Shown: positions 59,661 to 64,000 of the stretch, piece after piece
Numbering within the stretch: position 1 is the stretch's first letter
Layout of the letters: each line of letters starts with the position of its first letter
Source of the DNA: Arsukibacterium sp. UBA5043
GTDB lineage: Bacteria > Pseudomonadota > Gammaproteobacteria > Enterobacterales > Alteromonadaceae
Assembly: GCA_002415085.1 (NCBI GenBank)
Contig: DIBV01000003.1
Location: 1 to 64,000 of the forward strand
Direction: 5' to 3'
Length of the DNA stretch: 64,000 bases
The notes under the pieces: generated by a model
Seen by the model: only the letters and a program-made list of their open reading frames with translations
Told to the model about the DNA's origin: nothing
Database searches by the model: none
Position numbers and translations under genes: made by a program

Positions 59661-60368
59661 CTAAGGCCAATTATTTAATATGGCCTGATAACCACCAGAC
59701 TGTTGCAGCTTTTCCAGCTCTTGATCAAACTGCTGCTGTAACAGTTGGTCTTTGAAAATGGCACCATAAGGTTTAGTGATAAATATGGGGTGAATGGTTA
59801 ACCTTTCGCCCGGGTGATTTTTTTGCATGATGTAGGTTAACAGCCGTCGCTCACCGATAACAACGTCGGTTCTGGCATTAACCAGCAATTTTAGCTGAAG
59901 CTCGCGTTCTGCGATTTCTAAATAGTTTTCATCTTTTACCACATCCGCAAATTCCTGACCCAGTACAGAGGTAGCAAACTGATAGGCAATAATATTTTTG
60001 CCTTTTAAATCAGCCAGAGTATTAATGTTGTATTTATTATACTCAAGCGAAACGACAACATCTGCAAAGGGCAAATATGGTGTGGTTAGATAACCGTTGT
60101 CTGGCGGAAATGCCGCAGGACTGGCAACATCAAATTTTCCTTCATTAAACTCTTTGATCAGACGATTATAGGCCAGCAGATGAAACTCACTGTCATAGCC
60201 CATGTTCGTTAAAATATGCCGGATAATTTCAACATCTATGCCAGTAATACCCTTTTCTTCCTGATAAAACGCCCATGGCGGACCGATATTAACGGCCACC
60301 TTGAGCGTTGTCGGCGTTGCACACAGCTGCCAGGAAAAAGTAAATATGAACAGCAAGATCAGGCGCAT
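59661..60368 (-). CDS. Solute-binding protein, family 3
   Basis: The 235-residue exported protein has a signal peptide (LILLFIFTFSWQLCATP) and a bacterial family 3 solute-binding fold: LKVAVNIGPPWAFYQEEKGITGIDVEII near the start and a hinge DLKGKNIIAYQF. Such proteins bind amino acids or feed sensory systems. There is no ABC permease nearby, so it is a lone binder and may act as a sensor partner. The ATG at 60368 was chosen over the TTG at 60380. It is 173 bases after the diguanylate cyclase gene. Confidence 0.82.
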   Translation of the reverse strand: MRLILLFIFTFSWQLCATPTTLKVAVNIGPPWAFYQEEKGITGIDVEIIRHILTNMGYDSEFHLLAYNRLIKEFNEGKFDVASPAAFPPDNGYLTTPYLPFADVVVSLEYNKYNINTLADLKGKNIIAYQFATSVLGQEFADVVKDENYLEIAERELQLKLLVNARTDVVIGERRLLTYIMQKNHPGERLTIHPIFITKPYGAIFKDQLLQQQFDQELEKLQQSGGYQAILNNWP

Positions 60369-60541
60369 TGTCAAAACCAAAAAAAGCTGATGAATTGGAA
60401 ACCAGCGTAATACTGTTGTTATTTGCCCTTTAGTGTACAGGTTGAGGTCTGAAATTGCTCCCAGTATTGCCGGATTTCTGAAATCATAAGCTTATTTCAC
60501 ACGCACTTTATTAAGACCGTTATTGGCTCTGCCATAGTGCT

Positions 60542-61513
60542 TCATGATTCGGCCAGGCAAACCCGGTTGCGGCCTGTTGCTTTAGCCCGGTATAACGCTT
60601 CATCTGCAAGTTGGATCAGGCTTGCCGGAGTATCAGTGCGCCGACATTGCGCCACCCCAATACTTACCGTAAATAACGGCAGGCTGCTTTGAGCCGAGGT
60701 CTGCTGCTCCAGCGCATGCCGGATCCGCTCTGCAAGTTCACTGGCACTGACAATAGCGGTATCGGGTAAAATAACCAGAAACTCCTCGCCGCCAATTCTG
60801 CCGATAAAGTCTGTTTTTCTAAGCTGTGCATTGCAGCATTCAGCGACGGTCTTTAACGTTTGATCACCGCTCAGGTGACCGAAATTGTCGTTAATAGCTT
60901 TAAAATCGTCTAAATCTAACATCATAATAGTCAAAGGTGTTTGCTGGCGGATGGTGCGTGATATTTCAATATCAAGAATACGCATGGTTTCGCGGCGGTT
61001 AATTAGGCTGGTCAGTTCATCGGTGGTCGCCATTTTTTCCAGCTGCGCCGTGCGTTTTTTTACCTCGGTTTCTAATCGCTGATTTGATTCGGCAAGTTGC
61101 TTTTCAGCTTGGGTAAGTTCGGTAATTTTCTGCAGCATGTTGCGTTTACTTGGTAAGCTAATAATTTGCGGCATCAGATACCAAAGTAACAAGGCGGTAG
61201 CGATAGAGATAAATCCTGTTAAGGTCTTAACCATGCCATGAATATAGTAATAACCATGCCAGATATTAATGACCCCAAGTAAATGGGTGGCACCACAGAA
61301 AAAAATGAACCCGGCAAACATTAAAAACATCCAGTTAAAGCGTAAATCATCTCTTGCTTTTACCAGCCGCACCAGTCCAAAAGGGATCAGCATATAGGCG
61401 ATAAACGTGAGTAAATCACCACCAACATGCAGGATCAGTAAATCGGTGCGCCACAGCAGACAATGGCCGTGTGGCATAAAATCGCCATTAAGTAGTTCCT
61501 GAATAAATTCCAA
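60542..61513 (-). CDS. Diguanylate cyclase with ethylene-receptor-like membrane domain
   Basis: The 323-residue protein has three membrane helices, a coiled coil (about residues 122-160) and a GGDEF domain. The helices resemble the plant ETR1 ethylene site. D33, Y40, I43, P44, I70, C73 and H77 lie at exactly eight positions past ETR1 D25, Y32, I35, P36, I62, C65 and H69 as I recall them. C65 and H69 of ETR1 bind copper. The cyclase domain keeps GGEEF (240-244) and the RxxD inhibitory site (R231, D234), so it should make cyclic-di-GMP. The start is TTG at 61513; its N-terminus FMPHGHC is typical of bacterial relatives. Confidence 0.88.
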   Translation of the reverse strand: MEFIQELLNGDFMPHGHCLLWRTDLLILHVGGDLLTFIAYMLIPFGLVRLVKARDDLRFNWMFLMFAGFIFFCGATHLLGVINIWHGYYYIHGMVKTLTGFISIATALLLWYLMPQIISLPSKRNMLQKITELTQAEKQLAESNQRLETEVKKRTAQLEKMATTDELTSLINRRETMRILDIEISRTIRQQTPLTIMMLDLDDFKAINDNFGHLSGDQTLKTVAECCNAQLRKTDFIGRIGGEEFLVILPDTAIVSASELAERIRHALEQQTSAQSSLPLFTVSIGVAQCRRTDTPASLIQLADEALYRAKATGRNRVCLAES

Positions 61514-61617: not shown

Positions 61618-62112
61618 TTAATGAATTTCTTTAGCGAGCTTCAACATCTGCGCGCTTAGATGAAAGCCCTGTTGCCGTGCTAATGTCAGATTAACCCGAA
61701 ACGATATCCGGTGTGGTTCAGCAATCAGGCCAAACATGGCGCCCTGACGAAATAACTCTGCACCTTCTACGACGGTAAGCCGACCAGTGGTTTGCAGTAA
61801 TTGTGACCATTCTGGTTTTGAGGCGAGCTCTGCGCTTAAATATAAAACAGTGCATGTTGCTGCCTGATTAGCTGCAGTTATCAATGAAACCTGGGTCTGG
61901 GCCGGCAGAATGCTGGTGAGCGCATTAAACACCCCGGCATCTTGGGCGATGCAATAGTTTTGCTGTGCCGGTGGATTAGTTGCCCACTCACTGTACTGAA
62001 CAAACCGAAATAGCAATGCCGCTTTTAATGATGCCTGCGCCGGCTGAGCCCGCACCGGCGACACAACGAAAAATAGGGTCGCCCCGATAAGTACCGCCAG
62101 CAACCTACGCAT
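61618..62112 (-). CDS. YfiR-family periplasmic protein (DUF4154)
   Basis: The 164-residue protein has a signal peptide (VLIGATLFFVVSPVRAQP) and a DUF4154 domain that begins with KAALLFRFVQYSEW, the family signature. It contains two cysteines (about residues 54 and 87) that could form a disulphide. In Pseudomonas, YfiR is a redox-controlled repressor of the cyclase YfiN. It overlaps the TonB receptor stop by one base, and a cyclase gene follows 104 bases later. The target may be that cyclase, but it lacks a periplasmic sensor domain like that of YfiN. Confidence 0.86.
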   Translation of the reverse strand: MRRLLAVLIGATLFFVVSPVRAQPAQASLKAALLFRFVQYSEWATNPPAQQNYCIAQDAGVFNALTSILPAQTQVSLITAANQAATCTVLYLSAELASKPEWSQLLQTTGRLTVVEGAELFRQGAMFGLIAEPHRISFRVNLTLARQQGFHLSAQMLKLAKEIH

Positions 62113-64000
62113 TACAGGAAATTCCAGTTAATGGATAATTCAGCGCTGCGTTCGGGTTGTTGCAGCGGCACTCCTGTTGGTAGCGGGGCGTCAACGTATG
62201 CTTTGTCGAATACATTTTTCAAACCCAGCACAATATGTAATTTAGGGTTGAGTTGCCAGGACAGCAAAATATCGTGCCGGGCATAGCCGGGCATTTGGCC
62301 GCGGGGGCTGGTTCGTGCTGATGTTGCAAACATATGCCAGTTCAGATGCAGATCGTCACGCCAGAGCGGCTGGCTGTACTGTGTTTTAAACAGATGCTCC
62401 GGCGAGTTGGTTAAACCCATTTGGTCATTTTTATAACGGGCTCGCTGGGTGCTGGCAGAAAGTTGCAGCGTAGCACCGCTTTGCCAGGTTTTCGTCGCCG
62501 TTGTTTCCAGACCGTAGGCTTCGACGGCGCGGTCATTAAAAAACTGCACTATGGCGCTTGCACCATAATTACCGGTGATCAAATTGCGCACCTGAGAATG
62601 ATAAACGGTGGCACTGACAGACCAGCTATGCGCAAGCTGAGCTTGCCAGTTCGCCTCCAGCGTGTTGATTAACTCAGACTCAGGCACCGGCAGCTCATTG
62701 TATAAATTGCTGTTCTGCTCATATTCATTCGGCGCTCGAAACGCCGTACCATAACTTACTCTGACGCTTTGCTGGTTCGTCAGCTGCCATATCCAACCAA
62801 ACTTAGGGCTGAACTCACGAACATTCTGTTCGGTATAGTCGTAGCGGAAACCGCTGATAAATTTATGATTATCAGTAATTTGCCAGCCATGCTGCAGATA
62901 CAGCCCAATTCTGTTGTTTTTGCTGCTGACGGCAAGCACCGGAATAATATCATCAATACTGAACTGATAACTCTGATGCTGATCGTGCTGGCCATCAATC
63001 CCAAACAGTAAATGATGCGACGGTTCTGGCGTATAGCTTAAGCGTAAATCGAGGTTGGTCCATCTGCCGGTGACATCAAAGTGGTAGCGGCGTATCTCGC
63101 CGGTTGGAACAATAAAGGGCGTAAAAGTAGTAAGGTCGAAGCCATTGGTTGATAAATGGGTGTAAAGCTCAGCCTGATCGCTCAGGCTGTGGCTATGCTG
63201 CAGCGAAATAAAATAATTGCGGTTTTTTATTTTAAAAATATCGCTTCTGCTTGGGTCTGCCATCAGCGCCCCTGGCTCTTCCCGGGTACGTGACACCCCG
63301 GCCATTTGTAATTGCAGTCGGCGATAGCGGTAACTTGCAGCCAGTTTATGGTTAAGGTCGTTATTCAGCGTTTGTTGGGCAAGCACCGGCTCAGGTGCAT
63401 TGATATCGGCAAAAGCAATATCGTCCTGCTGGCTGCGGCTGAGCGACACCCAGCCCTCATGGCCACTGGCATGGCGAATACCATAGGACAGTGAAAGATC
63501 AAGCTGATCGCGTTGGTTGGCAGCCAGAGCTAACTGACCTCCCTGCAGCTTATTACCTCGTTTCGTTATAACGTTTACCACGCCCAGAAACGCATTATTG
63601 CCATAAAGTGCTGAACCGCTGCCCGGGCTGTATTCCACCCGGTCAATCAGTTGCGGATCAATATAAAAATTATTACCGATCATGCCGGCATCATAAATAT
63701 TATCATTGACTCTGGTGCCATCGACCAGCAGCAGGATCCGCGAATTATAGTCGCCCGGCCGGCCAATGCCGCGTGCGCTCAGATAGCCGTAGCTCGTGTC
63801 AGAGCTGACGTATAACCCCGGGAAAAAACTGAGGATCTCAATCAAATTTCTCAGGTTGAAGCGGCGTATTTCTTCATCAGTTACAATATGGGTGACTTGT
63901 GCCGATTTACCCGCACTCTGGGCATGACGTGCTGAGGTCGACACTTCAATCCGGGCCGGATCGGTTGCGGTTGGCTGTTGCAGTAACTCCTCCAGGCTTG
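62112..64000 (-). CDS. TonB-dependent outer membrane receptor (partial, runs off the right edge)
   Basis: The frame is open to the window end, so the N-terminus is missing. The visible 629 residues include the plug domain (IVTDEEIRRFNLRNLIEILSF, VEYSPGSGSALYGNNAFLGVVNV) and a 22-strand barrel. Its last strand ends in NWNFL. Family resemblance is to BtuB/colicin-type receptors; the ligand is unknown. An apparent start at 63944 is a GTG inside the plug region and not the real start. Receptor-YfiR-cyclase clusters recur in gammaproteobacteria. Confidence 0.88.
   Translation of the reverse strand, partial: SLEELLQQPTATDPARIEVSTSARHAQSAGKSAQVTHIVTDEEIRRFNLRNLIEILSFFPGLYVSSDTSYGYLSARGIGRPGDYNSRILLLVDGTRVNDNIYDAGMIGNNFYIDPQLIDRVEYSPGSGSALYGNNAFLGVVNVITKRGNKLQGGQLALAANQRDQLDLSLSYGIRHASGHEGWVSLSRSQQDDIAFADINAPEPVLAQQTLNNDLNHKLAASYRYRRLQLQMAGVSRTREEPGALMADPSRSDIFKIKNRNYFISLQHSHSLSDQAELYTHLSTNGFDLTTFTPFIVPTGEIRRYHFDVTGRWTNLDLRLSYTPEPSHHLLFGIDGQHDQHQSYQFSIDDIIPVLAVSSKNNRIGLYLQHGWQITDNHKFISGFRYDYTEQNVREFSPKFGWIWQLTNQQSVRVSYGTAFRAPNEYEQNSNLYNELPVPESELINTLEANWQAQLAHSWSVSATVYHSQVRNLITGNYGASAIVQFFNDRAVEAYGLETTATKTWQSGATLQLSASTQRARYKNDQMGLTNSPEHLFKTQYSQPLWRDDLHLNWHMFATSARTSPRGQMPGYARHDILLSWQLNPKLHIVLGLKNVFDKAYVDAPLPTGVPLQQPERSAELSINWNFL

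Follow-up and report, generated by a model that had tools for sequence, protein, structure and literature searches.

A predicted one-component diguanylate cyclase with an ethylene/copper-binding membrane domain in Arsukibacterium

The window, which is the whole stretch of 64,000 nucleotides of Arsukibacterium sp. UBA5043 DNA analysed here, encodes a protein composed of an ethylene-binding domain (EBD), a helical linker and a GGDEF domain. On balance, this protein is probably a diguanylate cyclase of the inner membrane that works as a one-component system under the control of Cu(I)/ethylene. Its relatives keep the two domains at a constant distance, so that biofilm signalling may respond in a single step to a gas known as a plant hormone, or to copper. 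The retention of the copper/ethylene site and the constancy of the linker make ligand control of the cyclase probable.

Sensor domain and copper/ethylene site

To identify the domains, we searched the protein against Pfam profiles. ETR1_N (PF25487) matched residues 25-120 (E 1.2e-31; 109.3 bits against a cut-off of 27) and GGDEF (PF00990) matched residues 162-317 (E 6.4e-44; 150 bits), in agreement with an earlier note that had assigned both domains from the DNA letters. The ETR1_N score excludes a chance likeness. The output domain is GGDEF, with no histidine-kinase-type output in the Pfam results, and no PAS or GAF domain was detected in the 323 residues up to E 0.01, as the note had also held. 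The TTG start is supported by its position, which is common to 14/14 genus orthologues (13 ATG; 1 TTG, in L016). The nearest named relatives, from Arsukibacterium and Rheinheimera, showed 70-82% identity. The genome (3.88 Mb, 18 contigs) contains one EBD, one DUF4154/YfiR protein and 53 GGDEF matches. The features are listed in Table 1.

Table 1. Coordinates of the EBD-GGDEF gene, its parts and its neighbours in the window
Feature	Position	Strand	Basis or remark
EBD-GGDEF diguanylate cyclase, predicted	60542..61513	(-)	323 aa, TTG start; ORF, Pfam, orthologue starts
Ethylene/copper-binding transmembrane domain, residues 25-120	61154..61441	(-)	Pfam, residues, AlphaFold2 model of 1-135
Helical coiled-coil-like linker, residues 121-163	61025..61153	(-)	Constant length in 40/40 two-domain proteins
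GGDEF diguanylate cyclase domain, residues 162-317	60563..61030	(-)	Pfam 150 bits; catalytic residues identical throughout the 28-protein alignment
I-site RKTD, residues 232-235	60809..60820	(-)	Read from sequence and alignment
GGEEF signature, residues 241-245	60779..60793	(-)	Read from sequence and alignment
Solute-binding protein family 3, downstream	59661..60380	(-)	Pfam SBP_bac_3
YfiR/HmsC-like periplasmic protein (DUF4154)	61618..62112	(-)	Pfam 86 bits
TonB-dependent receptor, runs past window end	62112..63998	(-)	Pfam Plug and barrel; not a conserved partner

The site residues D33, Y40, I43, P44, I70, C73 and H77 were read directly from the protein and lie at a constant offset of 8 from D25, Y32, I35, P36, I62, C65 and H69 of ETR1, so that the complete seven-residue site described in the earlier note is present. 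We take Y32 to be the ETR1 site residue that matches Y40. The numbers D25, I35, P36, I62, C65 and H69 are given in the available text of PMC6586836. We added an eighth site residue, K96, whose counterparts are K98 in AzoEtr1 and K91 in ETR1 (PMC11819568, in part). We regard the domain and site assignments as certain, and by analogy with homologues the domain likely binds copper and ethylene.

To assess conservation, we aligned 28 two-domain (EBD-GGDEF) proteins. The results showed 31/98 invariant EBD columns, with all eight site columns among them (hypergeometric chance 5e-5, a value that ignores shared ancestry), and the eight residues occurred at identical spacing in 40/40 two-domain proteins after repeats of one genome had been removed. 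Mean identity to the window protein was 73% over residues 23-120, 65% over the linker and 60% over the GGDEF domain in the 28 aligned proteins, and the sensor half is better conserved than the enzyme half. Among 57 EBD proteins from wider samples (L168-L232; 11 two-domain and 46 other), all eight residues were kept in 11/11 two-domain proteins, compared with 28/46 of the others. Retention of the site is therefore not automatic, since 18/46 other EBDs have lost site residues.

Site changes outside the two-domain group varied in kind. A PAS-bearing cyclase (L172) carried D33N and K96D, an EBD-GGDEF-EAL protein (L017) carried I43V and P44A, and P44T was present in 4/6 stand-alone EBDs. Four members of the EBD family lacked one or both copper ligands (the C65/H69 equivalents): L176 (C to S and H to Y), L177 (C to A), and L205 and L206 (H to R); some members must therefore work without the classical site. 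These loci, together with L204 and L207, were excluded as divergent from an 87-row EBD alignment that was hand-picked from 127 candidates, and its invariant columns overstate conservation for that reason; the sets of 40 and 57 proteins were used to judge conservation instead.

We used this 87-row alignment to model residues 1-135 with AlphaFold2. The model had a mean pLDDT of 93.4 and helices at 23-53, 60-85, 89-119 and 123-134, which gives the three-helix sensor that the earlier note had proposed to model. A model separating C73 from H77 had been named there as evidence against the site; in the prediction both residues lie in helix 2 (60-85), one turn apart. On an ideal helical wheel, C73 and H77 each fall within 60 degrees of I70 on helix 2, and D33, Y40, I43 and P44 within 100 degrees on helix 1. 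The full-length model had a mean pLDDT of 81, with helix 123-163 and the GGDEF domain well built and values of 58-75 over most of the membrane part. Judging from the charges in loop 49-58 and the abundance of K and R where the linker begins, the topology would be N-out, C-in. The search for solved relatives by sequence returned none covering the EBD (58 matches at E <= 1, all beginning at residue 114 or later), and the fold search gave 0 matches to the EBD at E <= 0.001. The best structural matches of the full-length model were a WspR-zipper fusion and IsPadC.

Cyclase domain and linker

In the 28 aligned two-domain proteins, D200, N208, D217, R232, D235, the GGEEF motif and K311 were invariant, and the I-site pair R232/D235 lay five residues ahead of GGEEF. 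The pattern RxxD-x5-GG[DE]EF was found in 38/40 two-domain proteins; of the two exceptions, L159 is cut by its contig and L223 has RATD followed by GGEEY. The GGEEF signature and intact RxxD site named in the earlier note are thus present, and we place them at 241 (GGEEF) and 232-235 (RKTD).

C73 and the T of TDxxT, the motif at which the cyclase starts, were 91 residues apart in 40/40 two-domain proteins, and 98 residues, or one heptad more, in the EBD-GGDEF-EAL relative L017. The hydrophobic fraction of the linker (LIVMFA, 28 proteins) was highest at phases 119+7n (0.70), 123+7n (0.49) and 120+7n (0.44), with the remaining four phases at 0.34, 0.23, 0.21 and 0.13. We read the three hydrophobic phases as probable d, a and e positions. 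Linkers of Rec-GGDEF proteins vary in steps of seven and have a conserved axxdexx end, a pattern attributed to a switch between two registers; the same switch may also act in cyclases with transmembrane helices (PMC8041772, in part). The linker described here shows the features of register-switch cyclases, namely a length that is fixed or changes in steps of seven (91 and 98 were the two lengths seen) and hydrophobic a/d/e phases; by analogy, its hydrophobicity fits a putative coiled-coil register switch of the DgcR type. The single length within one related group may in part be caused by shared ancestry. In phytochrome cyclases, 54% of linkers follow steps of seven, 38% lie at -4 and a few at +2 (PMC9587094, in part). 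Among 19 EBD-kinases with a recognisable H-box, linker remainders modulo 7 were 3 (9 proteins), 6 (7), 1 (2) and 0 (1), and we drew no support from these values.

Distribution and gene neighbourhood

The 40 loci of the two-domain group come from the genus of the window, from six further genera in the same family, and from the order to which a Methylophaga genome belongs. In the genus, 17/31 genomes, including that of the window, contained an EBD over the cut-off. The other 14/31 did not, and one of these (G002) carried what is left of a decayed EBD, interrupted by four TGA stops, at G002:C26:277555-277758 (L100, L147); the function is therefore dispensable. EBDs are common in the family (over the cut-off in 91/395 sampled genomes), whose members are mostly aquatic bacteria. 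The 17 genus loci and 12 further family loci (frames up to 357 aa) were all EBD-GGDEF and came from seven genera, with L159 cut by its contig; EBD-GGDEF is thus present in at least 29/395 family genomes, a count that covers longer frames only in part.

In wider samples, an EBD above the cut-off was found in 12/369 genomes across the class (own genome included) and in 28/398 across the phylum (family members included). At least two of the new loci from these samples, which cover the longer genes only in part, contained GGDEF, as EBD-PAS-PAS-GGDEF-EAL (L169) and EBD-PAS-PAS-GGDEF (L172). In the order of the Methylophaga genome, 17/63 genomes carried an EBD scoring above the cut-off, and the two-domain EBD-GGDEF form was present at 11 loci. 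The EBD-GGDEF-EAL gene of Methylophaga sp. 42_25_T18 lies at L017:5953-7791. The earlier note held that most bacterial EBD proteins are kinases; kinase domains occurred in 6/16 EBD proteins outside the two-domain group, a set of odd-length picks, not a fair sample, of which some are cut by their locus. Plasmid records gave 2795 matches, all below 60% identity, the best of which (H1, Variovorax) was a dCache-like plus GGDEF protein without an EBD.

Trees were built for both halves. The EBD tree was reduced from 166 rows to 130 by taking out redundant rows and, by hand, 4 divergent ones. In it, all 34 two-domain rows that remained after removal of redundancy grouped together (SH-aLRT 96 by a quick method on 113 columns); this grouping suggests, rather than shows, a single fusion event. 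In the cyclase-half tree (85 rows), two-domain proteins did not form one clade (6 changes for 40 labelled rows).

Two other arrangements were observed. A conserved Alteromonadaceae cluster (L160-L165; e.g. L162:1147-7970) carries a stand-alone EBD of 182-184 aa, flanked by a GAF-histidine kinase on one side and a second histidine kinase on the other. A REC-GGDEF-EAL gene is present in 5/6 of these clusters (L161-L165), with REC-HATPase and REC genes nearby (assigned by Pfam in L162 only), and the cluster may represent a split EBD/cyclic-di-GMP system. In Methylophilus sp. Leaf416 (L036:5980-8223), 72 bases lie between an EBD-PAS ORF and the next one, GGDEF-EAL, whose start falls within GGDEF, and the pair looks like one interrupted gene.

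Around the EBD gene, no neighbour pointing to ethylene or copper was recognised in the 17 genus loci. The SBP_bac_3 gene was directly downstream in 4/17 (L082, L132, L134, L141) and nearby in L142 and L144. The YfiR block was directly upstream in 4/17 (L082, L132, L134, L135), four genes off in L142 and absent among the compared neighbours of the other 12/17; with no constant neighbour across the genus, the YfiR association looks local. Just past the window, after the TonB receptor, lies a CHASE8-HAMP-GGDEF gene of YfiN architecture (G000:C5 64051-65334). The YfiR-TonB receptor-YfiN cluster resembles the TOL_0243/TOL_0244 families (NCBIfam), below their cut-offs, and is possibly a YfiBNR-type system with the TonB receptor replacing YfiB.

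An RND pump with its adaptor was near the EBD gene in 7/17 genus loci; in some of these, L138 and L139 included, it lay immediately upstream. It scored 670 bits as multidrug type and 349 bits as CusA/CzcA, both under their cut-offs. A two-component pair near the gene in 4 loci matched heavy-metal regulators only below cut-offs. No conserved neighbour was found that would identify the ligand, the pump being multidrug-like and the pair falling below its cut-offs. Cu P-type ATPase matches occurred in two frames of the window genome and in 14/14 control genomes, and weigh little for that reason. A promoter and terminator scan gave chance-level results only, which were set aside.

Proposed mechanism, alternatives and known systems

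By analogy with homologues, the protein would span the inner membrane with three helices, its N-terminus outside and, under the positive-inside rule, its C-terminus inside. One Cu(I) would be held between C73 and H77 of helix 2 and positioned by D33 of helix 1 and K96 of helix 3, and ethylene or a similar small alkene would bind Cu(I) from the membrane side. The altered helix packing would pass along the continuous helical linker 121-163, whose coiled coil would switch between two heptad registers and so allow or prevent the meeting of the two GGDEF domains of a dimer, and with it the formation of cyclic-di-GMP; RKTD would provide product feedback. The earlier note had proposed that ethylene, or copper alone, may set cyclic-di-GMP levels. 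This proposal is strengthened by the site and linker length, both unchanged in 40/40 two-domain proteins, and we consider it plausible, not proven. More tentatively, and with rather less confidence than for the protein itself, ethylene could be a dedicated cyclic-di-GMP input for aquatic Gammaproteobacteria. A subfamily in Alteromonadaceae and the Methylophaga order, with receptor and cyclase in one protein, no phosphorelay and a fixed 91-residue coupling from copper ligand to enzyme, would then act as a gas-to-biofilm switch.

The EBD could instead sense Cu(I) itself, or the membrane redox state via Cu(I)/cysteine, so that the cyclase would report copper availability. The two strongest ligands of the site are ligands for copper, and exposure to ethylene may presumably be low for an organism living in water. 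Nevertheless, the ethylene-lining residues that are not ligands (Y40, I43, P44 and I70) are kept as strictly as C73/H77 in 40/40 proteins, and no copper gene was recognised adjoining the EBD gene; we therefore consider copper sensing unlikely. Less likely again is that the three helices are a mere membrane anchor or dimeriser inherited from a receptor, with a cyclase that is constitutive or regulated only through its I-site. Membrane anchors with no identified input are widespread among cyclases, but here the eight site residues are unchanged throughout the 40 proteins and the sensor is more conserved than the enzyme, whereas site loss, including that of copper ligands (L176, L177, L205, L206), does occur among the other EBD proteins.

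The YfiR-like and TonB-receptor genes directly upstream on the same strand would fit a cyclase repressed by periplasmic YfiR under the control of an outer-membrane receptor. This is very improbable for the EBD protein, which has no periplasmic domain and, by Pfam, neither CHASE8 nor HAMP, and which adjoins YfiR in 4/17 genus loci. The CHASE8-HAMP-GGDEF gene next upstream means that YfiR already has a likely partner. We therefore rejected the YfiR/TonB genes as its signalling partner; most likely they serve the YfiN-type cyclase beyond the window. The resemblance to YfiBNR or TOL_0243-TOL_0244 systems thus lies in the genes directly upstream, and in all likelihood the cyclase of that type here is the CHASE8-HAMP-GGDEF protein rather than EBD-GGDEF.

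If ethylene is indeed such a dedicated input, bacteria could adjust how they attach according to the ethylene that algae, plants or photolysed organic matter release. The protein would also let ethylene act directly on biofilm control, and could be used as a compact ethylene reporter. Ethylene occurs naturally in seawater. Prokaryotic EBD proteins carry a wide range of output domains (PMC7700396, in part), and GeiEtr2 of Geitlerinema has a neighbouring gene for a diguanylate cyclase domain (PMC6682694, in part), which is an earlier hint of an EBD/cyclase link. The word "ethylene" is absent from a review of cyclic-di-GMP stimuli (PMC8846402), and the matches listed in our literature search, as far as their text was available, included no bench description of an EBD-cyclase. 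The EBD-GGDEF architecture itself may be noted in Lacey and Binder 2016, Papon and Binder 2019 or Carlew 2019. The route from copper-ethylene binding to output is called an open question in the available part of a 2026 review (PMC13012798). This protein would make the output question directly testable, since its 323 residues combine a sensor and a single helical linker with an enzyme whose product is easy to measure.

Compared with known systems, the sensor is closest in kind to bacterial ethylene receptors with binding tests, AzoEtr1 and SynEtr1, which in the available accounts are both histidine kinases. AzoEtr1 of Azospirillum brasilense (EBD-PAS-histidine kinase) has a proteobacterial EBD like that of the window protein, with D35, C75, H79 and K98 corresponding to D33, C73, H77 and K96, and it binds ethylene and affects biofilm (PMC11819568, in part). 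Its output is a two-component kinase with PAS, whereas the window protein is a predicted cyclase without PAS that would need no response regulator. SynEtr1/UirS of Synechocystis (EBD-GAF-histidine kinase) also has a bacterial EBD of this kind and binds ethylene (PMC5812497, in part), but combines light sensing with kinase output. On the enzyme side, IsPadC (sequence match E 7.2e-35) and DgcR, which are phytochrome- and Rec-linked GGDEF proteins, have a length-constrained coiled-coil linker with a/d/e positions before GGDEF, according to the parts of the sources consulted, as does the window protein. Their inputs are soluble and sense light or phosphorylation, whereas that of the window protein is a predicted membrane gas/metal sensor.
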